Source: Chromohalobacter beijerinckii
Lineage (GTDB): Bacteria > Pseudomonadota > Gammaproteobacteria > Pseudomonadales > Halomonadaceae
Reading direction: 5' to 3'
Length of the DNA stretch: 64,000 nucleotides
Assembly: GCF_023061185.1 (NCBI RefSeq)
Contig: NZ_JAKGAK010000004.1
Coordinates: 124,001 to 188,000, forward strand
The notes under the pieces were generated by a model, which was given only the letters and a program-made list of their open reading frames with translations, did no database searches and was not told where the DNA came from. This document shows, in pieces, positions 44,754-62,831 of this stretch (positions are counted from its first letter, which is position 1; the number at the start of each line of letters is the position of its first letter). Made by a program: the position numbers and the translations under genes.

Positions 44754-45842
44754 ATGTCATTGAACCTAGAAAACATCGATCGGGTGGTCGGCGGCGAGAC
44801 GCATATCGCTGATATGAACCTGACCCTTGAACCCGGATCGTTCAATGTCCTGTTGGGCCGGACGCTCTCTGGCAAGACCACTCTGATGCGGCTGATGGCG
44901 GGGCTCGACACGCCGACCCGAGGGCGAGTCTTAATGAATGGTCAGGATGTGACCGGTCGCTCCGTAAGGCATCGCAATGTATCGATGGTTTATCAGCAGT
45001 TCATCAACTACCCCAGCCTTACCGTCTACGATAATATCGCCTCGCCGCTGAAACTGGCGAAGGCAGGGCGCGCCGAGATCGATCGTCGGGTTCGGAGCAT
45101 CGCCGAGATGCTGCATATCGAGCACTTGCTTGATCGTCAGCCATTGGAGCTGTCCGGTGGCCAACAGCAGCGTACTGCCATGGGGCGTGCCTTGGTGAAG
45201 GATGCCGATGTGGTGTTGTTTGATGAACCACTGGTCAATCTGGACTACAAGCTTCGTGAGGAATTTCGCGAAGAACTGCGAACTGTCTTCAGTGAGCGTA
45301 ACTGCATTGCCGTTTATGCTACCACTGAGCCTGCCGAAGCACTGGCACTGGGTGGCAATACAGCGGTACTACACCAAGGGCGCTTACTTCAGTATGGTCC
45401 AACTGCAGACATCTACCACCGTCCTAGCGATATTAGAGCGGCTGAGATGTTCTCGGAGCCACCCATCAATATCGTCAAGGGCATCCTCACCGATTCTGAA
45501 ATCAGCTTCGATGATACATTGCACTTCCCCGTTGGAAATGATTTTAGCACTTTAGTCTCAGGCGAATACCGGTTTGGCATTCGTGCTTCGCATATATCAC
45601 TGACCCGGCGAGCCAAAAGTGATATCGAAGTCCATATGACCGTTGACTTGGCCGAGATCAGTGGTTCTGAAACCTTTCTGCATGTGCATAACGAACATTT
45701 CTACATGACGGCACATCTTGAGGGGGTACACGAATTTCGTGTGGATGCGCCGGTCACGCTCTACTTTTCGGCGCACAAGATTTATGCATTCGATCATGAA
45801 GGTGCGGTAGTCCATATACCGACTCACCTGAGAGGTATTTGA
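44754..45842 (+). CDS. glpS: Glycerol ABC transporter ATPase 1
   Basis: One of two ATPases of a glycerol importer of the type described as GlpSTPQUV in Rhizobium leguminosarum. The 362-residue protein has an intact Walker A (GRTLSGKTTLMRL), signature LSGGQQQRTAMGRAL, Walker B VVLFDEPLVNLD and a C-terminal TOBE-like region. The usual H-loop His region reads YATTEPAEALAL, without His at that place. Codon use includes more AT-ending codons than neighbouring genes. First gene of a six-gene operon. Confidence 0.93.
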   Translation: MSLNLENIDRVVGGETHIADMNLTLEPGSFNVLLGRTLSGKTTLMRLMAGLDTPTRGRVLMNGQDVTGRSVRHRNVSMVYQQFINYPSLTVYDNIASPLKLAKAGRAEIDRRVRSIAEMLHIEHLLDRQPLELSGGQQQRTAMGRALVKDADVVLFDEPLVNLDYKLREEFREELRTVFSERNCIAVYATTEPAEALALGGNTAVLHQGRLLQYGPTADIYHRPSDIRAAEMFSEPPINIVKGILTDSEISFDDTLHFPVGNDFSTLVSGEYRFGIRASHISLTRRAKSDIEVHMTVDLAEISGSETFLHVHNEHFYMTAHLEGVHEFRVDAPVTLYFSAHKIYAFDHEGAVVHIPTHLRGI

Positions 45843-45843
45843 G

Positions 45844-46944
45844 ATGGCCGAGATCACCCTGAAATCCCTGGCGCATACCTATTCGGCGAACCCCCAGTCA
45901 CCTCAAGACTATGCCATTCGTGAGATGAATCATGTCTGGCAGCAGGGCGGTGCTTATGCTCTGTTGGGGCCTTCGGGCTGCGGTAAATCGACGTTGCTCA
46001 ATATCATTTCCGGTTTGCTAGAGCCATCGAGTGGCGAAGTACTTTTTAATGGTGAAGTAGTCAATGCGTTGACACCCGAAGCACGCAATATAGCTCAGGT
46101 TTTCCAGTTCCCTGTCATCTACGACACGATGACAGTTTACGACAACCTGGCCTTTCCGCTGCGCAATGTAAAGACTCCTGAGACAAGGGTCCATGAGCGT
46201 GTCATGGAAGTGGCTGAGGTTTTGGAACTGACCTCCCAGCTAAAGCGCAAGGCCAAGAACTTGACGGCGGATGAGAAGCAGAAAGTGTCCATGGGTCGCG
46301 GCCTGGTGCGTGATGATGTTTCGGCCATTTTGTTTGATGAGCCTTTGACGGTTATTGATCCGCAGCTTAAGTGGACATTGCGACGTAAGCTCAAGGAGAT
46401 TCACCAGCGTTTCCAGATCACCATGGTCTACGTGACTCATGACCAGCTCGAAGCCTCTACCTTCGCTGACAAGATCGCCGTGATGTACGAGGGCCAGGTG
46501 GTGCAGTTCGGTACTCCTAGAGAGCTTTTCGAGACACCGAATCACACCTTCGTCGGCTACTTTATCGGTAGTCCGGGCATGAACTTTCTGGACGTCTCCG
46601 CTCGCGATGGCGTGGTCTGGGCAGGCGATACCGCGCTCACGGTGGGGCAAGGGGTTCGAGATGCCATCGAGAAAGCGACGTCTTCCAGCATCAAGCTGGG
46701 AATCCGGCCTGAATTCATTGAGGTGCATACCGATCCGGTGGAAGACGGGATGCCGGCTCAAGTGGATCACGCTCAGGATCTAGGAACCTATTCGATTGTT
46801 TATTTGACCCTTGGTGGCATCTCGCTCAAGGCGCGTATCGAAGAAGACCAGATGACCCCGACCGGTAAGGCTTGGCTGCGCTTCCCCGATGAGCGCCTCG
46901 GGCTTTACGTCGATGAATATCGCGTGGAGATCGACCATGAATAA
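45844..46944 (+). CDS. glpT: Glycerol ABC transporter ATPase 2
   Basis: The second ATPase, 366 residues, one base after glpS. Walker A (GPSGCGKSTLLN), Walker B (AILFDEPLTVID) and the H-loop (VYVTHDQLEAS) are intact, but the signature reads LTADEKQKVSMGRGLV in place of LSGGQ. With GlpS lacking the H-loop His and GlpT lacking a standard signature, the dimer should have one normal and one degenerate ATP site. The symbol follows the Rhizobium operon and must not be confused with the E. coli GlpT antiporter. Confidence 0.93.
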   Translation: MAEITLKSLAHTYSANPQSPQDYAIREMNHVWQQGGAYALLGPSGCGKSTLLNIISGLLEPSSGEVLFNGEVVNALTPEARNIAQVFQFPVIYDTMTVYDNLAFPLRNVKTPETRVHERVMEVAEVLELTSQLKRKAKNLTADEKQKVSMGRGLVRDDVSAILFDEPLTVIDPQLKWTLRRKLKEIHQRFQITMVYVTHDQLEASTFADKIAVMYEGQVVQFGTPRELFETPNHTFVGYFIGSPGMNFLDVSARDGVVWAGDTALTVGQGVRDAIEKATSSSIKLGIRPEFIEVHTDPVEDGMPAQVDHAQDLGTYSIVYLTLGGISLKARIEEDQMTPTGKAWLRFPDERLGLYVDEYRVEIDHE

Positions 46945-47815
46945 AGTCCATAACAACCGGGCGTGGTGGTTGATTCTGCCCATGCTGCTGTTGGTGGCCT
47001 TTTCGGCCGTCATACCGCTAATGACCGTAGTGAACTACTCGGTCCAGGACGTCTTCGATGCCAATACACGGTTCTTTACAGGTACCGAATGGTTCAAGGA
47101 GATGCTCAACGATCCTGCTTTGCAGGCGGCTGTGCTGCGTCAGTTTGCCTTCTCGCTGACTATCCTGGCCATCGAGGTACCGTTGGGTATTGGCGTCGCA
47201 CTGATCATGCCCAAGAAGGGCTGGCAGGCATCGGCCGCGCTGATTCTGGTGACCATGCCATTACTGATTCCTTGGAACGTAGTGGGCAGTATTTGGCAAA
47301 TATTTACTCGCGGCGACATCGGCCTGATGGGCTGGAGCCTGCGCGAGCTCGGCTATGGTTACAACATCACCTCGAACCCGGTGGACGCCTGGGTGACCAT
47401 TATCCTAATGGATGTCTGGCACTGGACATCGCTCATCGCCTTGCTCTGCTACAGCGGCCTGCGCTCGATCCCGGATGCGTATTACCAGGCAGCGCGTATC
47501 GATCGCGCCTCGAAGTGGGCTGTGTTCCGTTATATCCAGTTGCCCAAGCTCACCAACGTACTGGTGATTGGGGTGCTGCTGCGCTTCATGCACTCGTTCA
47601 TGATTTATGCCGAACCTTTCGTGCTGACCGGCGGGGGGCCCGGTAGTTCCACGACCTTTCTCAGTCAGTCGCTGACGACCATGGCCATTGGGCAGCAGGA
47701 TCTAGGACCATCGGCGGCGTTTTCACTTATCTATTTTCTGATCATTCTACTGGTCACTTGGGTGTTCTACACCGCGATCATGAACATGCAGAAAGACAAC
47801 AACAAGGGGGCATGA
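46937..47815 (+). CDS. glpP: Glycerol ABC transporter permease 1
   Basis: A 292-residue MalF-type permease with six hydrophobic segments (first LILPMLLLVAFSAVIPLM) and the EAA loop YYQAARIDRASKWAVFRYIQLP. It overlaps glpT by 8 bases and has GGAGA upstream. FVLTGGGPGSSTTFLSQ is typical for this sugar/polyol permease class. Confidence 0.93.
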   Translation: MNKVHNNRAWWLILPMLLLVAFSAVIPLMTVVNYSVQDVFDANTRFFTGTEWFKEMLNDPALQAAVLRQFAFSLTILAIEVPLGIGVALIMPKKGWQASAALILVTMPLLIPWNVVGSIWQIFTRGDIGLMGWSLRELGYGYNITSNPVDAWVTIILMDVWHWTSLIALLCYSGLRSIPDAYYQAARIDRASKWAVFRYIQLPKLTNVLVIGVLLRFMHSFMIYAEPFVLTGGGPGSSTTFLSQSLTTMAIGQQDLGPSAAFSLIYFLIILLVTWVFYTAIMNMQKDNNKGA

Positions 47816-47816
47816 G

Positions 47817-48713
47817 ATGAGTGCTTCGTCATTGCCGAAAACACCTGAAGAAGTGCGTCAGCGTGCTGCAGTTGCCGATAACCGGCGTCGACGCAAGGCC
47901 CGCTCGGCTCCCCGTCAATGGCGACGCCGGGGGCTAATGGCCGCCTACATCGTGTTCGTGCTGTTACCGGTCTATTGGCTACTCAATATGTCCTTTCAGT
48001 CCAACAGTGAGATCCTTGGCGGACTGACTCTGTGGCCGGAAGATTTTACCGTCGAGCACTATGCCAAGATCTTGACAAATTCCAGCTGGTACATGGGTTA
48101 CATCAATTCGATTACCTATGTGTTGATGAACATGTTGATCAGTATCGTGGTTGCTCTGCCGGCGGCCTATGCTTTTAGTCGTTATCAGTTCATTGGCGAC
48201 AAACATCTTTTTTTCTGGTTGTTGACTAATTTGATGGCGCCACCAGCAGTTTTTTTGCTGCCTTATTTCCAGCTGTATTACACCGTAGGACTTTTCGATA
48301 CTCACGTGGCGGTTGCTTTAGCACACTGTCTGTTCAATATTCCGCTGGCCGTGTGGATTCTGGAAGGTTTCATGAGCGGTGTCCCCAAGGAAATTGATGA
48401 GACCGCCTTCATTGATGGCTATAGCTTTCCGCGATTCTTCGTGAAGATATTCATTCCCATGATCAGCTCCGGTATTGGCGTGACCCTGTTCTTTCTTTTC
48501 ATGTTCTCTTGGGTGGAACTGCTACTGGCCAGCACTCTCACCTCTACGGGTGCCCAGCCCATCGCCTCGGTGATGACCCAGACCAAGGGCGCCTCAGGAA
48601 TCGACTGGGGGACACTGGCCGCCGCCGGCGCCCTAACCATTCTGCCGGGTATCGTGGTGGTCTATTTCGTTCGCAATCACATCGCCAAGGGCTTTGCTCT
48701 GGGCCGTACCTGA
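47817..48713 (+). CDS. glpQ: Glycerol ABC transporter permease 2
   Basis: A 298-residue MalG-type permease starting one base after the glpP stop. A basic N-terminal tail (residues 1-38) precedes six membrane segments; the EAA loop reads EIDETAFIDGYSFPRFFVKIFIP. The symbol follows the Rhizobium naming, not the E. coli phosphodiesterase GlpQ. Confidence 0.93.
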   Translation: MSASSLPKTPEEVRQRAAVADNRRRRKARSAPRQWRRRGLMAAYIVFVLLPVYWLLNMSFQSNSEILGGLTLWPEDFTVEHYAKILTNSSWYMGYINSITYVLMNMLISIVVALPAAYAFSRYQFIGDKHLFFWLLTNLMAPPAVFLLPYFQLYYTVGLFDTHVAVALAHCLFNIPLAVWILEGFMSGVPKEIDETAFIDGYSFPRFFVKIFIPMISSGIGVTLFFLFMFSWVELLLASTLTSTGAQPIASVMTQTKGASGIDWGTLAAAGALTILPGIVVVYFVRNHIAKGFALGRT

Positions 48714-48725
48714 GGAGTATGCGAC

Positions 48726-48998
48726 ATGGCATGGATGGTCTGGACGACACCTACGATGGTCTTCTTCGTGGTCATTGCCGCCATGCTGGCGGCGATGACC
48801 ACCTGGGAAATCATCTCACCGACGGTCGAGCGTAAGGGCTTCTTGCCGATCTCGACCACGCGCGGCGATCGGTTCTTCATAGGACTGCTCAGCGCGGCCT
48901 ATATCCATCTGGTGGTAGTGGGCTTCACCCCATTGAGTATCTGGCTGGCCTTGGGGGTATCAGTGCTCTGGCTACTGGTATTGATGCGCTGGGGCTGA
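48726..48998 (+). CDS. glpU: Small membrane protein of the glycerol transporter
   Basis: A 90-residue protein with three hydrophobic segments (MVFFVVIAAMLAAMTTW, FIGLLSAAYIHLVVVGF, SIWLALGVSVLWLLVLM). It matches the DUF2160-type protein found between the permease and binding-protein genes of this operon type. Its exact role is unknown. Confidence 0.85.
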   Translation: MAWMVWTTPTMVFFVVIAAMLAAMTTWEIISPTVERKGFLPISTTRGDRFFIGLLSAAYIHLVVVGFTPLSIWLALGVSVLWLLVLMRWG

Positions 48999-49055
48999 CA
49001 GAAAGGGATGGAGCTAAATGTCCAGGAACGGATGACAACAACCAAAGAGGTCAAT

Positions 49056-50798
49056 ATGAAAACGACAACAATGCGGCTCTCTCTACTCGCGGCAGGTGTC
49101 ATGCTGGCATGTGGTAGCGTGCACGCCGATGAGCAAGATACCCGAGCTATCGCCGAGCGATTGGTGGATGAACACTTCCAAGAATCGACACTGACGCGTG
49201 AGCAACAGATTGAAGAATTGATGTGGTTTGCCAAGGCGGCCAAGCCCTTTCAGGGAATGGAGATCAACACCGTTGCCGAAGGTTTGACGACGCATGTCTA
49301 TGAGCGTGACGTGCTGGCTGAAGCATTCAGCGAGCTGACCGGCATCGAGTTGACGCATAACATCATCGGCGAGGGCGATGTCGTCAATAATATGCAGACC
49401 CAGATGCAGTCGGGTCGCAATATCTACGATGGCTACGTTAATGACACGGATTCCATCGGGACGCATATCCGCTACGGTACGACCGTCAATATTTCCGAGG
49501 CCATGAAGAACGAGTGGGCGGACTATACTTTGCCGACACTAGACCTCGACGATTTCATGGGCTTGCAGTATGGCACTGGCCCGGATGGTAGCGTTTACCA
49601 GTTACCTACCCAACAGTTCGCCAACCTCTACTGGTTCCGCTATGACTGGTTCCAGCGCGAGGATCTGCAGAACCAGTTCCGCGATCTCTATGGCTATGAC
49701 CTGGGCGTGCCGACCAACTGGACCGCCTACGAGGACATCGCCGAGTTCTTCACCGAGCATGTCGGTGAGATTGATGGCACCAAGGTCTATGGCCACATGG
49801 ATTACGGTCGTCGTGATCCCTCGCTGGGATGGCGGTTCCACGACTCCTGGCTCTCCATGGCGGGGATGGGAAGCCCCGGTGTGCCATTTGGGAACCCGGT
49901 TGACGACTGGGGTATTCGTGTCAACGAGCAGAGCCAACCTGTCGGAGCGAGTGTTTCCCGGGGTGGGGCGACCAACTCGCCGGCTTCGGTCTTCGCTGTG
50001 ACCAAGATGGTGGATTGGCTCGATAAGTATGCCCCTCCTGAAGCCAGCGGCATGACGTTCGGTGAGGCTGGGCCGGTGCCGGCTCAAGGCAACGTCGCCC
50101 AACAAATATTCTGGTACACCGCGTTCACGGCTGACATGACGGCGCCTGATCTGCCGGTCACCGATGATGAAGGCAATCCCAAGTGGCGCATGGCACCGTC
50201 ACCGACTGGTCCATATTGGGAAGAGGGCATGAAAGTCGGCTATCAGGATGTGGGGGGTTGGACTTTCTTCGACTCCACCCCTGAAGACCGGCGTACGGCT
50301 GCCTGGCTTTTTGCTCAGTTCACCGTTTCCAAAACCGTCTCGCTCGAGAAGTTGTTGGCGGGTCTGACGCCGATTCGTGAGTCTGATGTCTTCTCCGATA
50401 AAATGACCGAAATGGCGCCTAAGCTGGGCGGCTTGGTGGAGTTTTATCGCAGCCCCAACGCTGCCAATTGGACACCATCGAGCACCAACGTACCGGACTA
50501 TCCACGCATGGCACCGTTGTGGTGGCAGAACTTGGCACCGGCTGTCAGCGGCGATATTGCACCCAAAGAGGCGCTCGACAACTTGGCCAGAGACCTCGAC
50601 AGCATCATGAGTCGCCTGGCTCGGGCGAAGGTCTTCGAGACGTATTCCCCCAACCTCAACGAGGAACGTGACCCTCAGTACTGGCTCGACCAGCCGGGTT
50701 CGCCCAAGGCGAAGCTGGATGATGAGATGCCGCAGGGTACCACCGTTCCCTATGACGAGATGATGGAGGCATGGATGGCCACCGGTTCACAAGAATGA
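49056..50798 (+). CDS. glpV: Glycerol ABC transporter substrate-binding protein
   Basis: A 580-residue periplasmic binding protein, large for the class but as in the Rhizobium GlpV group. It has a cleavable signal peptide (LSLLAAGVMLACGSVHA), then a two-lobed extracellular binding fold (VYERDVLAEAFSELTGIELTH; HDSWLSMAGMGSPG). No lipobox. The mature protein is very acidic. ATG at 49056 lies 5 bases after AGAGG. The operon ends in a terminator. Confidence 0.93.
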   Translation: MKTTTMRLSLLAAGVMLACGSVHADEQDTRAIAERLVDEHFQESTLTREQQIEELMWFAKAAKPFQGMEINTVAEGLTTHVYERDVLAEAFSELTGIELTHNIIGEGDVVNNMQTQMQSGRNIYDGYVNDTDSIGTHIRYGTTVNISEAMKNEWADYTLPTLDLDDFMGLQYGTGPDGSVYQLPTQQFANLYWFRYDWFQREDLQNQFRDLYGYDLGVPTNWTAYEDIAEFFTEHVGEIDGTKVYGHMDYGRRDPSLGWRFHDSWLSMAGMGSPGVPFGNPVDDWGIRVNEQSQPVGASVSRGGATNSPASVFAVTKMVDWLDKYAPPEASGMTFGEAGPVPAQGNVAQQIFWYTAFTADMTAPDLPVTDDEGNPKWRMAPSPTGPYWEEGMKVGYQDVGGWTFFDSTPEDRRTAAWLFAQFTVSKTVSLEKLLAGLTPIRESDVFSDKMTEMAPKLGGLVEFYRSPNAANWTPSSTNVPDYPRMAPLWWQNLAPAVSGDIAPKEALDNLARDLDSIMSRLARAKVFETYSPNLNEERDPQYWLDQPGSPKAKLDDEMPQGTTVPYDEMMEAWMATGSQE

Positions 50799-52980: not shown

Positions 52981-55077
52981 TTAACCGCCGCGTGAGGAAG
53001 GTGAGGACATGTCGCTGAGCGATGCGATCAGTTTGCGCGTGGTGGCTTCCTCGGCGCCGCTTGGGAACGCCTGGCAGGGGAGCCAGACGTGGAAGATCGT
53101 GCCGCGACCGCGTGCCGAGGCGACCCACATCTCGCCGCCGCTGCGGCGTACGATGCCCGCGCTGATAGCCAGCCCAAGCCCGGAGCCCGCTTCGCGCGTG
53201 GTGAAGAACGGATCGAAAATTCGGCCGCGTAGCTCGGGCGGAATGCCTGGCCCTCGGTCGGCGACGCGTATTTCGACGCCGTCGAGGCATCCGTGCTCGG
53301 GGATCTCGCGCACGGTGTCGCGTGTCGCCAGATGAATGTTCATCGGCGAGGTGCTGGCTTGAGTGGCATTGAGCAGCACGTTGATCAGCACCTGTTGCAA
53401 TTGACCGCGATGGCACTCGGCGCGCCTAGTGGCGTGCAGTGAACTGATCAGGCGGTGGCCGTGCTTGTCGAGAGCGTGTCGGATCAAGAGCTCGGTACCG
53501 GCGGCGATGGCGTTGATGTCTTCGGCGACGAAGGCAGGCTCATGCCCACCGGCACGCGAATATTGCAGCAGGTTATCGATCAGCGCACGAATACGCTCGA
53601 CCTGGGCGATGATAGTGTCGACTTCGTCGCGCACGGGGGCGACATCGGGGCCAAGGCTATCGGCCAGTAACTCCACGTGGCCGAGGATCACCGCGGCAGG
53701 GTTGTTGATTTCATGCGCGATACCCGCGGTCATCTCGCCTAGGGCGGCAAGCTTTTCCTGGGTCATCAGGCTGGCGCGCGCCTGCTTGAGCAAGGTGACG
53801 TGCTCCTCGAGTGCGCGCGTTTTCTCGGTCAGCGATTGGGTCCGTGTCTCGACGCGTCGCTCGAGGGTCTGAGCAGCACGTTGCAAGGCGTTCTGATGGG
53901 CGTCCAAGCGGTCGAGCATGGCATCGAATTCATGCGCCAGTTCTGCCAGTTCGTCCTGGCTATCCAGATGGCCGATGCGTAGGTGCTGCCCCTCACGGAT
54001 GCCGTGTATCACGCGATGCATCCGGCGCACCGGGGTAGCGAGGGCGTCGACGCCGCGAATGACCATCAAGCCCGAGATCAGGATGATGACGAGTAAAACG
54101 GCACCGACCTGCAGCAGTGTGTCTCGGTAGAGGGCTTCATAGGGCGCCAGGGGAAAGCCGGCATAGATCATGCCGATACGCTGACCGGTTAGTGACTCGA
54201 GTGGAGCATAGGCGGCGACGTACCAACCACTGACCACGAAGGCGTTGTCTATGAAACGCTCGCCGCGTTCTAGAACCTGGCGGCTGACGGGCTCGGAGAC
54301 GCGCGTGCCGAGGGCGCGTTCGCCGTTGGCCAGGCGCACGTTGGTAGCGATGCGCACGTCATCGAGAAACAAGGTGACGCTGCCGGTGCTGCCTTCGGGA
54401 AGCGTACCCGGGCCATAGACCAGGTCTCGGATCTCATCCACGGGCTCGGCATCGCCATTGAGCAAGCGCCCGCCATCGAGGAGAAGACGCAGGTTTCCTT
54501 GTCCGTCATGAATGGGATACAGCGTGCGCAATACCATGCCGCGCGTCTCGCGCTGACGATCGCTGGGAGCCGCTTGCGGTGTGTCGCGCAGCGCAAGGCG
54601 TGCTCGTCGGGCGAGCCCCGAGGACAGTGTTTCAAGACGCGGTGCCGTGAGAACGTCCAGTCCTGACATGCCTTGCGCATTGTCTGATGTTTGCAAGCGG
54701 CGTTGCAGTTCGGGGCTATCCTCTAGTGCCGCGAGCGGTACCACGCGCAACCAGTCCAGTTGCATCGCGTTTTGCGTTTCGTCGAGCAGTGCCTCGAGTG
54801 ACTGAGATCCTTCGCCCTGCAGTGCCGAGGCGAGCGCGTGGCTGCGCGCCAATTCCTCGAGGCGCGCTTGCTGTTGCTGGCTCACACCGTCTAGAACGCG
54901 CGAGGCAACGGCTAGGTCGGCACGCACTTTCATATACAACTGGCGGTCGTTGTACGTTGAGGTCCAATACGCCGTGAGTCCCGCCAGGGCGAGTATCAGC
55001 AAGGCCAGCGGGGCGAAGGCGAGCCACAACAGTCGGCGTCGAATCGAGGCGCGCAACCAGCGGCGTAAGCCTTTCAT
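52981..55077 (-). CDS. Sensor histidine kinase of a sigma-54-type two-component system
   Basis: 698 residues: membrane segment 1 (about 16-37), a large periplasmic sensor region with double-CACHE-like character (about 40-318), membrane segment 2 (about 320-341), HAMP (342-395), coiled coil (395-440), HisKA with the phospho-acceptor His455 in AGIAHEINNP, and HATPase with N box (INVLLNATQA), DRGPGIPPE and GSGLGLAIS. Its start overlaps the response-regulator stop by 4 bases (ATGA). The layout is DctB-like, but no dicarboxylate transport gene is nearby; the divergent neighbour is a tungstate-type transporter. Confidence 0.93.
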   Translation of the reverse strand: MKGLRRWLRASIRRRLLWLAFAPLALLILALAGLTAYWTSTYNDRQLYMKVRADLAVASRVLDGVSQQQQARLEELARSHALASALQGEGSQSLEALLDETQNAMQLDWLRVVPLAALEDSPELQRRLQTSDNAQGMSGLDVLTAPRLETLSSGLARRARLALRDTPQAAPSDRQRETRGMVLRTLYPIHDGQGNLRLLLDGGRLLNGDAEPVDEIRDLVYGPGTLPEGSTGSVTLFLDDVRIATNVRLANGERALGTRVSEPVSRQVLERGERFIDNAFVVSGWYVAAYAPLESLTGQRIGMIYAGFPLAPYEALYRDTLLQVGAVLLVIILISGLMVIRGVDALATPVRRMHRVIHGIREGQHLRIGHLDSQDELAELAHEFDAMLDRLDAHQNALQRAAQTLERRVETRTQSLTEKTRALEEHVTLLKQARASLMTQEKLAALGEMTAGIAHEINNPAAVILGHVELLADSLGPDVAPVRDEVDTIIAQVERIRALIDNLLQYSRAGGHEPAFVAEDINAIAAGTELLIRHALDKHGHRLISSLHATRRAECHRGQLQQVLINVLLNATQASTSPMNIHLATRDTVREIPEHGCLDGVEIRVADRGPGIPPELRGRIFDPFFTTREAGSGLGLAISAGIVRRSGGEMWVASARGRGTIFHVWLPCQAFPSGAEEATTRKLIASLSDMSSPSSRGG

Positions 55078-56444
55078 GCGTTCAAGTCTTGCCAGGCATT
55101 GAGTTTGCGGTCGAGGGTCTTGCGCGATACGCCCAACGCGCGGGCGGCACTGGATTTATTATGGCCATGGACTTCTAGCACATCCAATATATGCGCACGC
55201 TCGACGGCTTCCAGAGACCAGTCGCTGGGATAGCCACTCGTGCCAACGGCGTTGGGCGCGGTAGCCACCTCATCGAGCATGTCGCTCGGTAGTTGGCCGA
55301 GCAGAATGCAACGCTCGATGAAATTCTTGAGCTCGCGGATGTTGCCAGGCCAAGGATAATGCATCAGACGCTCAAGGTCGGCATGCTGCCATGGCGGGGC
55401 GGCGAGCCCCAGATCGCGAGATAGCTGACGAGAGAAATGGTGGGCCAGAGCAGGAATATCTTCCGGATGTTCGCGCAACGCGGGGAGCGTCAAGGTAAGA
55501 ACGTTGAGGCGAAAATAGAGATCCTCACGGAAACGTCCCTCGCTGACTTCGTGCTGCAGGTTGCGGTGGGTAGCGGCGAGGATACGCACGTCCACGGGTT
55601 GCTCTTGCTCGCTGCCCACCGGACGAATGCGCTTGCTTTCGAGTACGCGCAGCAGCTTGGCCTGCATTGCCAACGGCATCTCGGCGATTTCATCGAGGAA
55701 CAACGTGCCGCCATCGGCATAGGTGAACAGCCCTTCACGGGTCTTGACCGCGCCGGTGAAGGCGCCCTTGACGTGACCGAAAAGCTCCGATTCCAGAAGG
55801 TCGCCGGCGATGGCGCCGCAGTTGAGAGGCACGAAGGCGCCGAATCGCCCCGAGAGGCGGTGCAGGTCGCGGGCCACGAGTTCCTTGCCGGTGCCCGATT
55901 CGCCATGGATCAAGACGGCCGAGGGTGTCGGCGCGACGCGCTCGGTGATCGCTCTGACCTGAGCCATGGCGTGGCTATCTCCGATCATGCTCTCATCGGG
56001 GTGGTGCAGGCGCTGGGTCTCGCGCTGGAGCACGAAATTCTCGCGCGCTAGGCGACGTTGGGCTAGGCAACGGTCGACGGCGCTTTGCAACTGCTCGAGG
56101 CGAAACGGCTTGATGATGAAGTCGCTGGCCCCGGCGCGCAGTGCCTGGACCGCCATGTCGAGATCGGCGTAGGCGGTCATGAAGATGATATCGCTACGCC
56201 GTTCGGGACCGAGCGCCTCGTGCCATTCGATGCCCGAGCGGTCAGGGAGACGGATGTCGACCAACAGCAGATCGAAGTGTAGCCGCTGACGCAAGGCTTC
56301 CGCGGCGCTGAGCGAGTCGGCGACCTCAACCAGCGCGAAGCGCGGTGCCAAGGCCTTGGCAAGATAGTTGCGCATGCCGGGCTCGTCATCGACGATCAAC
56401 ACGGAGGCGGTCGGCAGTTCGGTGGATGCGGTCATGGGCGACAT
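55074..56444 (-). CDS. Sigma-54-dependent response regulator (NtrC/DctD type)
   Basis: 456 residues: receiver domain ([10 protein letters not shown], phospho-acceptor Asp63 in [11 protein letters not shown], Lys in IIKPF), AAA+ domain with Walker [12 protein letters not shown], the sigma-54 contact loop GAFTGA and Walker [14 protein letters not shown], and a Fis-type HTH at the C-terminus ([20 protein letters not shown]). Intact GAFTGA means it should activate sigma-54 promoters. ATG at 56435 is an alternative start. A -24/-12 promoter and a palindrome lie in the divergent gap to tupA. Confidence 0.95.
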
Positions 56445-56455
56445 TCCCTGCGTGG

Positions 56456-56472
56456 CGGGACATAGTGTCCCG
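56456..56472. promoter_or_regulatory. 17-bp palindrome, candidate upstream activator site
   Basis: CGGGACA-TAG-TGTCCCG is a perfect 7+7 inverted repeat, 12 bases upstream of the response-regulator start and about 108 bases upstream of the -24 element. A further half-site TGTCCCC lies at 56549-56555. The position suits an enhancer for a sigma-54 activator. Confidence 0.6.
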
Positions 56473-56578
56473 TCATTGGGTCAATTTGTTACATTCGTTA
56501 CGCACCTGGATTATTTTCATGGTAAAAGGCGCGATGTAATCCGGCAATTGTCCCCGTTTTTAGCAGCGTGGTCACGTC

Positions 56579-56594
56579 AGGCATACCAATTGCA
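56579..56594 (+). promoter_or_regulatory. Sigma-54 (-24/-12) promoter of tupA
   Basis: AGGCATACCAATTGCA: GG at 56580-56581 and GC at 56592-56593 have the exact 12-base phasing of TGGCACG-N4-TTGCA, with GGCA and TTGCA matched. Predicted start near 56605, 36 bases before tupA. Confidence 0.7.
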
Positions 56595-56640
56595 AGGAGA
56601 GTTGGGCATGTTCATGACTCGACAATAATGAGGGGTTCCC

Positions 56641-57489
56641 ATGTTGACACGCCGTCTCTCGCTGTTCGCTACCCTGGCGCTATCGTTGTTGCTGGTGTCC
56701 GGGGTCCAGGCCGCCGATACCGTTCGTTTGGCGACCACCACCAGCACCTACAATTCTGGGTTGCTGGATTACCTGTTGCCCAAGTTCGAAGAAGATCATC
56801 CCTATCAGATCCAGGTCATCCCCGTAGGCACCGGAAAAGCGCTGCGTCTGGGGCGTGACGGCGATGTCGACTTGGTGTTGACCCATGCGCCCGCTGCGGA
56901 GAAGGCCTTCGTCGATGCCGATTACGGTGTCGAACCGCATGGTGTGATGTACAACGATTTCGTGATCGTAGGGCCGTCCGACGACCCTGCCGGGATCGAT
57001 GGTGGCGATGATGCCACTAGCGCGTTTGCCGCTGTGGCGGATCAAGGCGCGACGTTTATTTCACGTGGCGATGACTCCGGCACCGACAAGAAAGAAAAGC
57101 ATCTCTGGGCTGAGGCCGGCGTAACACCTGACTTCGAAGGCTTTCGCGCTGCAGGGCAAGGCATGGGGGAAGTGCTGAAAATGGCCAGTGAATTACAAGG
57201 CTATACATTGACGGATCGCGGCACCTGGCTGGCAATGAAAGATAAGCTCGATCTCGAGATCATGGTCGAAGGCGATACGGCGTTGTTCAATCCGTATCAG
57301 GTCATCCTGGTCAATCCCGAACGCTATGACGGCCTCAATACCCAGGGCGCACGGGCCTTGGCCGAGTGGTTGATTTCCGACGAAGGACAAGACCTGATCG
57401 ACGCTTTCCGACTCAATGACAAGGCCTTGTTCCATGCCAGCGCCGGTGAGAAGGTCGATCCTACTAGCGCCGTCCATGAAAGTGACTGA
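56641..57489 (+). CDS. tupA: Tungstate-type ABC transporter substrate-binding protein
   Basis: A 282-residue periplasmic protein with a signal peptide (LSLFATLALSLLLVSGVQA). The oxyanion-binding signature RLATTTSTYNSGLLDYLLP and the later SRGDDSGTDKKEKHLW are those of TupA-type proteins, which prefer tungstate; molybdate cannot be excluded from sequence alone. ATG at 56641 lies 5 bases after GAGGGG. A six-codon ORF (MFMTRQ, from 56608) precedes it in the leader. Confidence 0.93.
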   Translation: MLTRRLSLFATLALSLLLVSGVQAADTVRLATTTSTYNSGLLDYLLPKFEEDHPYQIQVIPVGTGKALRLGRDGDVDLVLTHAPAAEKAFVDADYGVEPHGVMYNDFVIVGPSDDPAGIDGGDDATSAFAAVADQGATFISRGDDSGTDKKEKHLWAEAGVTPDFEGFRAAGQGMGEVLKMASELQGYTLTDRGTWLAMKDKLDLEIMVEGDTALFNPYQVILVNPERYDGLNTQGARALAEWLISDEGQDLIDAFRLNDKALFHASAGEKVDPTSAVHESD

Positions 57490-57504
57490 CGCTCGGAGGC
57501 GTCG

Positions 57505-58212
57505 ATGCACGAACTCATGAACACGGCGAGGGAGGCGCTACACTTGCTGGTCTCCCTCGACCCAGCCTTGTGGGAAATCATCGGCGTCTCGTTTCGTGTC
57601 TCGCTGACGGCGATACTCGTGGCCTTGCCGCCTTCGTTGTTAATTGCCTTGCTGCTGGCGCGCGTTGCCTTTCCTGGTCGCTGGTTCGCGATATCGTTGG
57701 TCAATACGTTCATGGCCGTGCCGACCGTGGTGGTGGGGTTGGTGTTGTTCATGCTACTATCGCGCAGTGGCCCACTGGGGGAGTTGCGTCTCCTGTTTAC
57801 CCAGCGTGCCATGATCCTCGGCCAGATATTGCTGGCGATGCCGGTATTGACAGCGATGTTGCACAGCACGCTGCAAAGCATCGATCAGCGTGCCTGGGAA
57901 ACGGCACGGCAACTAGGCGCTGGATGGTGGCAATCTCTGTGGGTGTTGATCCGCGAAGCGCGCTTCGGGGTCATTGCCGCCGTGCTGGCCGCATTTGGAC
58001 GCATCATTGCCGAGGTGGGCAGCGCGGTGATGATCGGGGGCAATATCGAGCATTTCACGCGCACTATCACTACGGCGATCGCTCTGGAAACGCTCAAGGG
58101 TGAATTCGCCCAGGGGCTTGCTCTGGGGCTCGTCCTGTTGCTGCTGGCGCTGGTGCTCAATGTACTGCTGGGCGTAATGCGCGGCCGCGGTCATCAAACC
58201 GTAAGTGTTTGA
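57505..58212 (+). CDS. tupB: Tungstate-type ABC transporter permease
   Basis: A 235-residue permease with five to six hydrophobic segments (VSLTAILVALPPSLLIALLL; FMAVPTVVVGLVLFMLL) and the EAA loop WETARQLGAGWWQSLWVLIREA. 15 bases after tupA. ATG at 57505 follows GGAGG. Confidence 0.93.
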   Translation: MHELMNTAREALHLLVSLDPALWEIIGVSFRVSLTAILVALPPSLLIALLLARVAFPGRWFAISLVNTFMAVPTVVVGLVLFMLLSRSGPLGELRLLFTQRAMILGQILLAMPVLTAMLHSTLQSIDQRAWETARQLGAGWWQSLWVLIREARFGVIAAVLAAFGRIIAEVGSAVMIGGNIEHFTRTITTAIALETLKGEFAQGLALGLVLLLLALVLNVLLGVMRGRGHQTVSV

Positions 58213-58241
58213 TCGCGCACCATCCATCGAGGGGAATGTTC

Positions 58242-58910
58242 ATGCTCGAGGTAAGCCATCTTGCCCATGGCTTCGACCGTCAGCCGGCGCTATGGGACAT
58301 ACCTTACCTATACTGGCAGGGGCGCTCGCTGGTGCACCTGCGCGGCGATAATGGTAGCGGCAAGACGACATTGCTGCGTCTTCTGGCGGGGTTGGAGGCG
58401 CCCCGCCAAGGCACCATACATTGGACGTTGGCGGGCGCGATGTCTGCCGTCACGCCACCTTGCCCAGGGCGCGTGCTCTATCTTCACCAACAGCCCTATC
58501 TCTTCGATACCAGTGTCGCAGGCAATCTGCGCTATGTTGCCCGATGGCACGGCTGGCGCGGAGAAATGGCCCGTGATCGTGTGGCGGCGATGCTGGAACA
58601 CTGTGGCCTAGCCGCACATGCAGAGCAACGGGCCCGCTCGCTGTCTGGCGGTGAGCGTATGCGATTGGCGTTGGCGCGGGCCTGGCTATTGTCGCCACGC
58701 GTGTTGCTGCTCGACGAGCCCACTGCCAGCCTTGATCGTCAGGCTATTGCTGATGTCAGTGCATTGATCTCGTCGCTGCATGAGGTGGGCTGCGCCATCG
58801 TACTCAGTGCACATCAACCCAGTGTATTGACCGAGCGCTGCGACGAGTACTGGAGCCTCGAACAACGATGCCTACAGGTAAGTGCCTTCAAGCAGGGTGT
58901 GGCGGTGTGA
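58242..58910 (+). CDS. tupC: Tungstate-type ABC transporter ATPase
   Basis: A 222-residue short ATPase with Walker A RGDNGSGKTTLLRL, signature SLSGGERMRLALARAW, Walker B VLLLDEPTASLD and H-loop VLSAHQPS. It lacks the C-terminal TOBE domain of ModC, as is usual for TupC. I chose ATG at 58242, 7 bases after GAGGGG; ATG at 58236 is also possible. Confidence 0.92.
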   Translation: MLEVSHLAHGFDRQPALWDIPYLYWQGRSLVHLRGDNGSGKTTLLRLLAGLEAPRQGTIHWTLAGAMSAVTPPCPGRVLYLHQQPYLFDTSVAGNLRYVARWHGWRGEMARDRVAAMLEHCGLAAHAEQRARSLSGGERMRLALARAWLLSPRVLLLDEPTASLDRQAIADVSALISSLHEVGCAIVLSAHQPSVLTERCDEYWSLEQRCLQVSAFKQGVAV

Positions 58911-59006
58911 CGTCGTCATTGCCGTACGCACCTGGTAAGTGGCTCGGCGTGTGCACCGAAGCTGCGTATGATGGTGGAATGAGTAGCCAGCGCGGGAGTG
59001 GTAGGC

Positions 59007-59606
59007 ATGCACGAGGATGAAGTGACCGCCGTGATATTGGCGGGAGGCGAAGGGCGTCGCATGGGTGGCCGCGATAAAGGCTGGGAGTCGTTTGCGGACG
59101 AACCCTTGATCGCGCACGTGGTGAACCGTCTGGCGCCTCAGGTCGGTCGCATCGCGATCAATGCCAATCGTAGCCTCGAGCGTTATCGGGCGCTGGGGTA
59201 CCCGCTCATCAGCGACCGCGAGACAGGCTATCACGGGCCGCTCATGGGTATGTGGAGTGCGTTATGTGCCATAGACACGCCCTGGGCATTATTCGTGCCT
59301 TGCGATTCTCCGGCTCTGCCGACGGATCTAGCGCTGCGCATGCAGCAAGGGCTCGGCGAGCAGCGTATCGCGGTTGCACACGATGGCCAGCGGGCGCATC
59401 CCGTGGTGGCCTTGATCGACGCCACGCTGCGCGACGATCTCGGGGCTGCTTTGCGCGATGGCGAGCGCAAGATAGATCGCTGGTATGCGCGCCACCCTTG
59501 GTGTCATGTCGATTTTTCCGATCAGCCCGAGGCGTTCGCCAACCTCAACTCTCCCGATGATCGTGACGTTATGGAGCGGCGCTGGCGCTCTGGTGGGTCG
59601 TTTTGA
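59007..59606 (+). CDS. mobA: Molybdenum cofactor guanylyltransferase
   Basis: Adds GMP to Mo-molybdopterin to form the MGD cofactor used by DMSO-reductase-family enzymes. The 199-residue protein has the nucleotide-binding VILAGGEGRRMGGRDKGWE, PLMGMWSAL and FVPCDSPALPTDL. ATG at 59007 is preceded by GGGAG at 8 bases. It is 96 bases after tupC on the same strand. Confidence 0.95.
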   Translation: MHEDEVTAVILAGGEGRRMGGRDKGWESFADEPLIAHVVNRLAPQVGRIAINANRSLERYRALGYPLISDRETGYHGPLMGMWSALCAIDTPWALFVPCDSPALPTDLALRMQQGLGEQRIAVAHDGQRAHPVVALIDATLRDDLGAALRDGERKIDRWYARHPWCHVDFSDQPEAFANLNSPDDRDVMERRWRSGGSF

Positions 59607-59751
59607 CCCGGGAGCTGCCTTCCTGTGTGATTATCGGAGAGCCAAGGCAATTCATCATCGCACTAAGGGTGGTTGCTCGGCATGTTTGTTGCCTCCTGTT
59701 ATCTATGGATGGTTCTCCCTCGACGAATTGGCATGAGGACGACAAAACGCG

Positions 59752-60318
59752 ATGACGTTATCGCTTGATACGCTAGACACGCCGCTGCTGGGTATCGCTG
59801 CTTGGAGTGGGACCGGCAAGACGACGCTGCTTGAGGCACTTTTGCCCAGATTAGCCGATGCAGAAATGCAGGTGGCCGTGATCAAGCATGCCCATCACGC
59901 CTTCGACATCGACCGCCCTGGCAAGGATAGCTACCGCCTGCGTCACGCTGGCGCGATGCCAATGCTGGTGGCGTCGGGCAAGCGTTTTGCCATGATGATG
60001 GAAACGCCCGAACGTGAGGAAGCCGATCTAGCGGCGCTGATCCCCCATGTTCTGCCCTTGGCGCCGGATTTGATCCTGGTCGAAGGCTTCAAAGCCTGGC
60101 CTTTACCCAAGCTGGAGCTGCATCGCGAGGCCTTGCAGAAGCCGCTGATGGCGGCCGATGACCCCTGGGTGCGGGCAGTGGCGACGCCCGATAATATTGC
60201 GCTGCCGGGAGGTGTCGAGCGCTTGTCGATGGACGATCATGACGCCTTGGTCGACTGGTTGCAGGCCTGGCCGCAACGTTGGCCCGAGATGCGTCGCGGT
60301 CCCCGGGAGACGTCATGA
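59752..60318 (+). CDS. mobB: Molybdopterin-guanine dinucleotide biosynthesis adaptor
   Basis: A 188-residue GTP-binding partner of MobA. P-loop GIAAWSGTGKTTLLEALLP, then KHAHHAFDIDRPGKDSYRLRHAGA and LILVEGFKAWPLPKLELHR. Its stop overlaps the moeA start (ATGA). A 145-base gap before it holds no ORF that I can support. Confidence 0.94.
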   Translation: MTLSLDTLDTPLLGIAAWSGTGKTTLLEALLPRLADAEMQVAVIKHAHHAFDIDRPGKDSYRLRHAGAMPMLVASGKRFAMMMETPEREEADLAALIPHVLPLAPDLILVEGFKAWPLPKLELHREALQKPLMAADDPWVRAVATPDNIALPGGVERLSMDDHDALVDWLQAWPQRWPEMRRGPRETS

Positions 60319-61586
60319 CCTTATCGTGTTTTGAACTGGGCGAGCGCATGCTCAGCGTCGATGAGACGCTCGAGGCCCTGGCGGCGATGACGCCGCCACC
60401 GGTCACCACGCGTCGGGTTAGCTTGGCGTCGGCCTGTGGCGGAGTGTTGGCGGTGGATGTCATGTCGCCAATCGACGTGCCGCAGAATACCAACGCCGCG
60501 ATGGACGGCATCGCGCTGGCGTGGCCCGATGACGTGCCGGGAGGCGACATGCGCGTGGACGTGGTCGGTGATGTCTTGGCGGGTACGCGGTTGACAACAT
60601 CGCTGGCGTTAGGCGGGGCGGTGAGGATTACCACCGGAGCGCCGCTGCCGGCCGGCGCAGATACCGTCGTCATGAGCGAGCAGCTCGTCGATAGTGGCAT
60701 CCCCGATCGCATCCGTGTCGAACACTCCGAGCGGGTACGGCGTGGGCAGAACGTGCGCCAGGCCGGCGAAGATATTGCTCGCGGCGAGCATGCACTGAGT
60801 GCAGGGACACGGTTACGGCCGCAGCACTTGGGGTTACTGGCCTCACTGGGATACGCGGAGGTCGAGATATTCCGTTCGCTACGCGTGGCAGTGTTCTCTA
60901 CCGGCGATGAAGTCACGGCGCCGGGCGAGTCGCTGCCGCCCGCCGGCATTTACGATACCAACCGTTTTTCGTTACAAGGTCTGCTGAGCCGCCTGGGCTG
61001 CGAGGTCATCGATCTGGGCATCCTGCAGGATAATCTTGACAGCATGCGTGTCTCCCTCGCGGCGGCGGCCCACGAGGCGGATATGGTGGTAACCAGCGGG
61101 GGCGTGTCGGTCGGCCAAGCCGATTGGGTCAAGCCCGCGCTTACGGCTATCGGCGAGCTGGGGTTATGGCGGATCGCCATGCGTCCGGGAAGACCCTTGG
61201 CGTTCGGTCGTATCCATCAAACGGGGGGCGTGACGGTGCCTTTCTTCGGGCTGCCCGGCAACCCCGTGGCGGTCATGGTGACGTTCTTGCAGTTCGTTCA
61301 ACCTATGTTACGGCGCATGCAGGGAGAGCATGACTGGCAACCGTCCCGTCTCACGGCGCTGGCCGGCGAGCCATTGAAAAGCCGTGAGGGACGTGTCGAT
61401 TACCATCGTGGTATTTATACAAGTGATGACGCCGGTCAACTGTGGGTGCGTACCACAGGCCGCCAGGGATCGGGCATTCTGAGCTCGATGGTGGCGGCCA
61501 ATTGCCTTATCGAAATCGGTGACGGATGTGCCGCCGTTGAGGCGGGTACGCCGGTGACGATACAACCGTTCGGTGACCTGACATGA
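60315..61586 (+). CDS. moeA: Molybdopterin molybdenumtransferase
   Basis: Inserts molybdate (or tungstate) into adenylated molybdopterin. The 423-residue protein has [60 protein letters not shown] and [18 protein letters not shown] at 60315 follows GGGAGA. The stop overlaps the next gene by 4 bases. Confidence 0.96.
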
Positions 61587-62362
61587 GTTTGACCCATCTC
61601 AATGCACGTGGCGAAGCCCACATGGTGGATGTTGGCGACAAAGCCGAAACGCAGCGCGAGGCCGTGGCAAGCGGACGCATCGTCATGCGCCCAGAAACGC
61701 TGGCATTGCTGGCCGAGGGCGGCTTGCCCAAAGGCGATGTGCTGGCCACGGCGCGTATCGCCGGCATTCAGGCCGCCAAGCGCACGCATGAGCTGATTCC
61801 CTTGTGTCATGCGTTGCTGCTGTCCAAGGTGAGCGTCGATTTTCGCCTCGACGATGCGGCTTCTTGTGTGCATGTGGAATCACGCTGCCGTCTGGCGGGC
61901 CGCACCGGTGTGGAAATGGAGGCGCTGACCGCGGTCTCGGTTGCGTGTCTGACCCTCTACGATATGTGCAAGGCGGTCGACAGGGACATGATGGTCGAAG
62001 GCGTGCGCTTGGAGCACAAGACGGGCGGCAAGTCCGGTGATTGGCACCGCGCTTCCGAGGATGAATCCGCGACGCGCGAAGCGTTCGAAACCCCATCCGT
62101 CGAAATCGCCGCAATACGCGTCAAGCTCCTCGCCGAATTGCGCGAGCGACTGGATATTGAAGAGGTGGAAGTGCCGGTTGCATCGCTGAAAAGACCCGAT
62201 GTCGCCAGTCTCAAGGCCGCTCTTGAGAAACAGGATTCCCGCTTCGCGGCCTTGTCCGCTGCGCGCATTCTGTGTGCCGTTAACCATGCCATGGCACATG
62301 ATGGAACGTCGCTCGCCGATGGGGATGAAGTGGCGTTTTTTCCACCGGTCACCGGTGGGTGA
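61583..62362 (+). CDS. MoaC-MoaD fusion: cPMP synthase joined to molybdopterin synthase small subunit
   Basis: A 259-residue single frame. Residues 1-156 are a complete MoaC, which with MoaA makes cyclic pyranopterin monophosphate: [35 protein letters not shown], and [16 protein letters not shown] with the catalytic Lys. After a linker (about 157-172), residues 173-259 match Moa[51 protein letters not shown]. The C-terminal Gly-Gly needed for thiocarboxylation is kept. No separate moaD is seen here. No start signal exists inside the linker, so it should be made as one polypeptide. Confidence 0.93.
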
Positions 62363-62372
62363 GGAGGCAGTC

Positions 62373-62831
62373 ATGATCGATGTGCGTGTGCAGTCGCCGG
62401 TCTTCGATGTGGGGGAGGAGCAGCGCCAATTGCTGGCGGGGCGTCATGATATCGGTGCCGTGGTGACCTTCACTGGCCTGGTGCGCGATTTCAATGAGCG
62501 CCCGGACGTGCAGGCCCTGTCGCTGGAGCATTATCCTGGCATGACCGAGGCGGCGCTGCGTGACATTGCTGAGCAGGCGACGTCGCGCTGGCCGCTCGAT
62601 GGGATACGCATTGTGCATCGTGTCGGCCGCTTGTTGCCAAGTGACCCCATCGTCATGGTCATGGTTGCGAGTGCCCATCGCCGTGCGGCATTCGATGCGT
62701 GCGATTTTCTGATGGACTACCTCAAGACATGTGCGCCATTCTGGAAGAAAGAACACACTGCAAGCGGGACGTATTGGGTCTCGGCGCGTGACAGTGACGC
62801 GCGGGACGCGGACCGTTGGGAGGAAGCATGA
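62373..62831 (+). CDS. moaE: Molybdopterin synthase large subunit
   Basis: Transfers sulphur from thiocarboxylated MoaD to cPMP. The 152-residue protein has [44 protein letters not shown] and the active-site lysines in [15 protein letters not shown] at 62373 follows GGAGG. Its stop overlaps moaA by 4 bases. Confidence 0.96.

Follow-up and report, generated by a model that had tools for sequence, protein, structure and literature searches.

We analysed a 64,000-nucleotide stretch of Chromohalobacter beijerinckii DNA (contig NZ_JAKGAK010000004.1, positions 124,001 to 188,000 of the forward strand; hereafter the window) that contains genes for a sensor histidine kinase and an NtrC-type response regulator, which share a 4-bp overlap on the minus strand and are divergent from a tungstate-type transporter, tupABC (56641-58910), across 196 bp. 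Molybdenum cofactor (Moco) genes extend the tup run on the plus strand in the order mobA, mobB, moeA, moaC-moaD, moaE and moaA, up to 63817 (Table 1). The question is what this pair senses and which genes it controls. We consider it likely, with a probability of roughly 0.7, that it is a formate-responsive two-component system that switches on tungstate import, cofactor assembly and formate dehydrogenase (FDH) together via sigma-54. The evidence is wholly computational, and consists of genes, motifs, spacing, conservation and co-occurrence that were observed directly.

The regulator comprises a receiver (Response_reg, residues 15-123), a sigma-54 AAA+ domain with Walker A at residue 181 and GAFTGA at 227, and a Fis-type helix-turn-helix; a sigma-54 gene was found in the same genome. 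Among 30 loci from five genera of the same family in which the pair faces tup, the best -24/-12 score upstream of tupA was at least 19.5 out of 21 in every one, at intergenic lengths of 180-677 bp; among 9000 dinucleotide-shuffled versions of those regions, 105 scored 19.5 or more. The same regions revealed a palindrome, GGG[A/T]CA-N3-TG[A/T]CCC, at 11/12 or better in 22/30, compared with 0.09 expected; this is the probable regulator-binding motif. The -24/-12 and motif scores are based on our own weightings, and the motif was defined by visual inspection of the same tup regions in which its first counts were made; the counts at mobB, at FDH genes and in other bacterial classes are more independent. 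An exact-motif search of 21 genomes found matches in FDH clusters, plus scattered matches elsewhere. The loose motif is unspecific by itself, because the looser pattern with one mismatch allowed occurred at 142 places in the C. beijerinckii genome versus 122 for the reversed pattern.

Table 1 Features of the kinase-regulator-tup locus in the window
Feature	Position	Strand	Basis
Sensor histidine kinase, membrane, 698 aa	52981-55077	-	Pfam sCache_3_3 1.7e-27, HAMP, HisKA, HATPase_c; AHEINNP at residue 454
Cache sensor region, residues 30-330; putative formate residues R242, T245, T258	54088-54990	-	AlphaFold2 (AF2) model pLDDT 95.7; PDB sequence matches 8py0, 8py1
NtrC-type response regulator, 456 aa	55074-56444	-	Pfam Response_reg, Sigma54_activat 4.7e-68, HTH_8; GAFTGA at 227
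Probable upstream activating sequence (UAS) 1, regulator binding site, GGGACATAGTGTCCC	56457-56471	.	Sole exact match to GGGWCANNNTGWCCC in own genome
Probable UAS 2, GGGTCAATTTGTTAC, 10/12	56478-56492	.	Begins 101 bp before promoter start
tupA -24/-12 (sigma-54) promoter, AGGCATACCAATTGCA	56579-56594	+	Sequence score; conserved in 30/30 loci
tupA-like periplasmic oxyanion-binding protein	56641-57489	+	NCBIfam TupA 4e-66, under cut-off; PDB relatives 3muq, 3lr1, 5my5
tupB-like permease	57505-58212	+	Profile matches, under TupB cut-off
tupC-like ATPase, start codon uncertain	58209-58910	+	Pfam ABC_tran; operon position
mobA, molybdenum cofactor guanylyltransferase	58998-59606	+	TIGR02665 above cut-off
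Probable UAS 3, GGGTCGTTTTGACCC, 11/12, overlaps mobA end	59595-59609	.	Motif scan
Second -24/-12 promoter, CGGCATGTTTGTTGCC, upstream of mobB	59678-59693	+	Motif-promoter pair before mobB in 17/30 loci
mobB	59752-60318	+	TIGR00176 above cut-off
moeA, start uncertain; listed ORF overlaps mobB end	60279-61586	+	NF007960 above cut-off
moaC-moaD fusion	61583-62362	+	Pfam MoaC + ThiS
moaE, true start probably downstream of listed start	62199-62831	+	Pfam MoaE 2.1e-37, ORF residues 68-177
moaA	62816-63817	+	Pfam Radical_SAM + Mob_synth_C

Motifs paired with promoters were also found before two further sets of genes. UAS 3, between mobA and mobB, sits 83 bp before the second promoter. In one relative, an exact motif match lies inside an FDH cluster encoding DUF3305, DUF3306, a 4Fe-4S protein, a TorD-like protein and FDH alpha, beta and gamma, and the FDH cluster of the C. 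beijerinckii genome itself (G000:C4, locus L158) carries the motif at 7621 and again at 7652, and a weaker -24/-12 element lies at 7737, between the gene for DUF3306 and that for the 4Fe-4S protein. The FDH subunits of this cluster matched FDH3 models above their cut-offs for beta (338 vs 240 bits) and gamma (187 vs 116), and the best model for alpha was Fdh-alpha, at 474 bits under a cut-off of 666. A second moeA-like gene (L158:16105-17307) adjoins the cluster, possibly reflecting a split between W and Mo.

A blind scan of the whole window for motif and promoter at a spacing of 78-127 bp returned four pairs, two before tupA, one before mobB and one stray at 407-506, and the same scan of the 19-kb FDH stretch (L158) returned only the two pairs at the FDH site. 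Over 60 stretches (991 kb), there were 100 such pairs, with 84 before tupA, mobB or FDH genes and 16 elsewhere within those stretches, compared with totals of 11 and 10 for two permuted palindromes. Given this rate of stray pairs, the one at 407-506 on the minus strand of the window (AGGACAGTTCGACCC, CGGCAGTTTCATTGCC) is probably due to chance. Loci with a pair numbered 20/30 for tupA, 17/30 for mobB and 25/30 for FDH genes; a full FDH cluster was observed at the 30 loci examined, although some are cut by the end of the stretch or contig, and L156 shows no FdhABC. Spacing between motif and promoter was 84-85 bp at 24/30 FDH loci, and at mobB it was either 83-84 bp (11 loci) or 93-94 bp (6 loci), about one helical turn apart, with the value for L045 taken from the window's own row. 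In genus g2, the motif precedes DUF3305 and fdhA rather than the 4Fe-4S gene (L154:8708, L154:13688, L156:8210), and the regulated start of the FDH cluster seems to have moved there.

To the extent that they concern genes and promoter, the statements of the initial annotation held. The kinase and NtrC-type regulator lie divergent from tupABC as it described, GAFTGA is intact, the sensor region of the kinase proved to be a Cache-type domain in Pfam, and the promoter before tupA was recovered at exactly the position given. Its proposal that the divergent pair controls tupABC through sigma-54 is supported by the retention of the pair beside tup in 30 of the 33 kinase-bearing family genomes, which passes the annotation's own check, and by the conservation of promoter and motif. 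The description of the transporter as tungstate-type holds as a relationship and not as a curated assignment: the TupA-like and TupB-like proteins scored 223 bits against an NCBIfam cut-off of 400 and 181 against 320, respectively, and the solved relatives of the former are 3muq (3.8e-98, uncharacterised), 3lr1 (3.2e-64, named tungstate-binding) and 5my5 (1.2e-61). A genuine modB is present at another place in the genome. The mobB promoter, the probable FDH target, the probable regulator-binding motif and the putative formate-type sensor go beyond what had been noted.

The comparison of this neighbourhood across the family, which the initial annotation had proposed as a check, covered 121 genomes, with the sensor in 33 and TupA in 70. 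In 30 of the 33 kinase-bearing genomes (genera g1, g2, g4, g6 and g19), tup, with Moco genes behind it, is transcribed divergently from the pair. TupA and DUF3305, which served as the marker of the FDH cluster in all whole-genome counts, agree in 120/121 genomes (69 with both, 51 with neither, 1 with TupA only); therefore, tup is probably the metal supply of FDH. Genome G038 contains an NCS2 gene, a PuuR-like gene, tupABC and Moco genes (tup-mob-moe) in the same order as pair-bearing loci. A kinase match was absent from the whole G038 genome, no regulator was found at the tup locus, the only locus searched for it, and no DUF3305 was found in the genome; there was no motif, and the best -24/-12 score within 420 bp was 15.5. 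In G100, from the same genus as the window, kinase, TupA and DUF3305 were all not found. The first 35 genomes (30 with the pair, 5 without) had suggested that the pair always accompanies the FDH cluster; this was withdrawn when, across the full family, 39 more genomes were found to have DUF3305 without it. Those genomes, for example L081-L084, have a second tup type, with TupA 41-47% identical and the order tupB-tupC-tupA in the four loci seen.

The kinase consists of a Cache-type sensor, HAMP, HisKA and HATPase domains according to Pfam. A phmmer search of the PDB with the sensor gave only two matches at E ≤ 1, 8py0 (3e-6) and 8py1 (0.0073), and Foldseek with the AF2 model of the sensor placed them first and fourth by E-value; both entries are titled 'in complex with formate'. 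The Foldseek alignment with 8py0 had a TMq of 0.33, a TMt of 0.62 and 25% identity, and that with 8py1 had 18% identity. In the formate chemoreceptor PacF, R142, T145 and T158 affect formate binding, and R115 of Atu0526 binds formate, according to the part of the source available (PMC12501870). Kinase residues R242, T245 and T258 have the same spacing (R-x2-T-x12-T), and identical letters are aligned with them in 8py0. All three are kept in 32/32 aligned family kinases, the alignment leaving out L059, 1 of the 33, for an internal stop. L059 (G083) and L067 (G078) each have one in-frame TGA within the kinase sensor match, which may indicate a broken gene, a wrong start or a sequencing error.

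Relatives of the pair in other bacterial classes were examined in a wide scan of named genomes, using the best 80 of at least 583; 73 of these have the sensor and 7 are unrelated kinases, and some of the stretches stop at contig ends. Around the sensor-bearing loci, the best tblastn match from a panel of genes was to an FDH subunit in 45/73, and the other neighbours sought were tup (13/73), Moco genes (12/73) and genes of the major facilitator superfamily (MFS) related to the oxalate/formate antiporter (OFA) family (25/73). FDH, tup or Moco genes were present at 55/73 loci and any of the four kinds at 65/73, compared with 0/7 for the unrelated kinases. Likewise, R-T-T was intact in 70/73 sensors and in 0/7 unrelated kinases; the fold alignment of this wide set included all but two (L208, L234) of 71 sensor sequences. 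Three kinds of FDH occur near the pair, each examined in one representative: clusters with DUF3306, FDH-N-like enzymes with Form-deh_trans, and NAD-linked subunits with Complex1_51K. At L183 of Thiothrix lacustris, a single locus has the gene order moeA-mobB-mobA-tupCBA / regulator-kinase / fdhCBA-torD. The motif and promoter scan, at a spacing of 60-139 bp, gave 88 pairs in 71 loci versus 13 and 32 for permuted motifs, and 44/88 lie upstream of a panel gene; the two of 73 loci left out, L178 and L179, are of the same lineage as the family set. In Bradyrhizobium (L206, L208, L235), for example, promoters with the full score of 21 out of 21 precede the MFS gene of the FDH locus. Two sensor loci, L218 and L241, are in records titled as actinobacteria (Enemella, Nocardioides), which may reflect transfer or a contaminated assembly.

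Formate, rather than tungstate, thus appears to be the likeliest signal of the kinase, because the PDB sequence matches are formate-bound, the R-x2-T-x12-T residues fit, the pair stands near FDH genes in other classes, and G038 has tup without either pair or FDH marker. In the mechanism we propose, R242, T245 and T258 of the Cache domain would bind periplasmic formate, and the regulator, once phosphorylated, would bind the GGG[A/T]CA-N3-TG[A/T]CCC palindromes. Conserved sequence suggests that it would then activate sigma-54 RNA polymerase at the -24/-12 promoter before tupABC-mobA, before mobB-moeA-moaCD-moaE-moaA, and inside the FDH3-type FDH cluster at G000:C4 (L158). The substrate would induce the enzyme, the import of its metal (W or Mo) and the assembly of its pterin cofactor. 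It is also fairly likely that the pair represents a hitherto undescribed family of sigma-54-coupled formate sensors in the membrane, which occurs in Alpha-, Beta- and Gammaproteobacteria as well as in at least one desulfobacterium and switches formate oxidation whichever of the three FDH kinds is present; in this gammaproteobacterial family it would also command tungstate import and cofactor assembly, so that metal uptake follows the substrate of the enzyme and not the metal.

A number of results weigh against this interpretation. Within the family, the other three kinase-bearing genomes (genus g20) have a related pair, with a kinase 37-38% identical, that lacks tup and DUF3305; at the two of these loci whose genes were listed (L075, L077), an OFA-type MFS gene adjoins the kinase. 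Nor does the FDH marker depend on the pair, because 39 of the 91 family genomes without the pair beside tup keep DUF3305, with a more distant TupA; the pair is one solution among others. The family genomes share ancestry, and the Fisher p of 2.6e-9 for the family counts is uncorrected. At the DNA level, the tup motif falls below 10/12 in 5/6 g6 loci and one g2 locus, FDH promoters are weak in the genus of the window (a score of 17 out of 21), and five FDH loci (L170-L174) contain no motif-promoter pair at the threshold used. In the wide set, the control of seven kinases is small and mostly cyanobacterial, 8/73 loci have none of the neighbours sought, some of the best panel matches to FDH could be other molybdoenzymes, and 3/73 sensors depart from R-T-T; since the R was already part of the peptide pattern used in that scan, the two T alone count as independent. 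Finally, TM-scores over the model were higher for LuxQ (3c38; TMq 0.48, TMt 0.64), which ranks third, and for vpHK1S-Z8 (3lid), with a TMq of up to 0.51, than for 8py0. These two align with a larger share of the model, so formate is neither singled out nor settled as the ligand by the fold alone.

The last point leads to the alternative that survives best, in which the kinase responds to a different small carboxylate (lactate, oxalate, acetate or pyruvate) and FDH is one of several targets. Such a ligand is possible, since the OFA-related MFS neighbours at 25/73 loci have an L-lactate transporter model as their best match, and, in the fold comparison, a larger part of the model is matched by Cache sensors whose ligands are different. 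We nevertheless regard it as unlikely, since both PDB sequence matches are formate complexes with fitting residues and FDH genes, of three kinds, are the commonest neighbours. A kinase that senses tungstate, molybdate or tungstate-loaded TupA, so that the pair keeps oxyanion supply steady, would account for the divergent arrangement with tup in 30/33 kinase-bearing genomes, and has a parallel in the two-component BaeR regulon of Salmonella, which is induced by tungstate according to the available portion of the report (PMC3160322). This was the signal first suggested by the initial annotation and now seems distinctly improbable: 60/73 wide loci have no tup in the examined stretch and 45 have an FDH match, tup is present without the pair in G038, the sensor's PDB matches are formate-bound domains, and the motif is found at Moco and FDH genes too. 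The initial annotation had also allowed for an unrelated signal such as a dicarboxylate; the signal favoured here is formate, which had not been named, and not a dicarboxylate, as the DctB domain 3by9 came at rank 20 in Foldseek, behind the formate domains. That the pair controls something else, with its proximity to tup being inherited synteny and the -24/-12 element chance, is very improbable. In its favour, tup, Moco and NCS2 genes stay together in G038 without the pair; against it, promoter and motif are both missing there, and elsewhere the promoter is kept in 30/30 loci of five genera across variable intergenic lengths and the motif far exceeds expectation.

If formate sensing by the pair is true, it would provide a membrane receptor and a regulon for formate-induced FDH expression across many proteobacteria, and would place metal import under the signal of the substrate. 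The predictions that follow are a ligand open to testing, three specific residues, a DNA motif, and target genes in relatives such as Bradyrhizobium, Thiothrix and Modicisalibacter, and the sensor could give a biosensor part for formate-based biotechnology. Unlinked to these findings, the window also contains an ABC transporter set at 44754-50798 (two ATPases, two permeases and a large SBP_bac_1 binding protein), upstream of an NCS2 permease and a PuuR-like regulator.

Among the matches listed in searches of the open-access literature, no description of the pair, the combination or the regulon was found, which is weak evidence of absence. The parts themselves are of known kinds. FhlA of E. coli is a formate-activated sigma-54 regulator of formate hydrogenlyase that senses formate in the cytoplasm as a single protein, without receiver or kinase; its N-terminal part senses formate, in the place that the receiver occupies in the present regulator. 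The present system shares with it the putative formate signal, an AAA+ activator with GAFTGA, and sigma-54 promoters of formate-oxidising enzymes; in contrast, it consists of a kinase in the membrane and a regulator with a receiver, and its probable regulon adds metal uptake and Moco synthesis. By this analogy, it would work like FhlA, yet it is not an FhlA. ModE and TunR exert one-component control of molybdate and tungstate uptake by sensing the intracellular oxyanion; they likewise control tup/mod-type transporters, whereas control here is apparently exerted by the substrate of the enzyme. NtrB/NtrC, AtoS/AtoC and ZraS/ZraR have the same architecture of regulator and kinase, and the best NCBIfam models were AtoC and AtoS, but scores were far under the cut-offs (375 vs 714 and 186 vs 646, respectively), and sensor and targets differ.

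The closest known counterparts of the sensor are the formate chemoreceptors PacF, Atu0526 and McpF, with 8py0 and 8py1, which share the Cache fold and the R-x2-T-x12-T formate residues as far as the accessible part of the source describes them (PMC12501870). Those proteins are chemotaxis receptors, whereas here the domain would drive a histidine kinase and transcription; in Foldseek the sequences are only 25% (8py0) and 18% (8py1) identical to it. In Methylorubrum extorquens, moeA1-mobB-tupBCA has been argued, in the part of the article available, to be a tungsten unit serving FDH (PMC13197769), and in both loci tup is grouped with moeA and mobB into a unit that would supply FDH; they differ in that the available text of that article, in which sigma-54 was not searched for, does not contain the words 'two-component', 'sensor' or 'kinase'. 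A survey of predicted sigma-54 promoters lists, in the portion available, FDHs among its matches in Alpha-, Beta- and Gammaproteobacteria and Bacilli (PMC12316311), in agreement with sigma-54 control of FDH.

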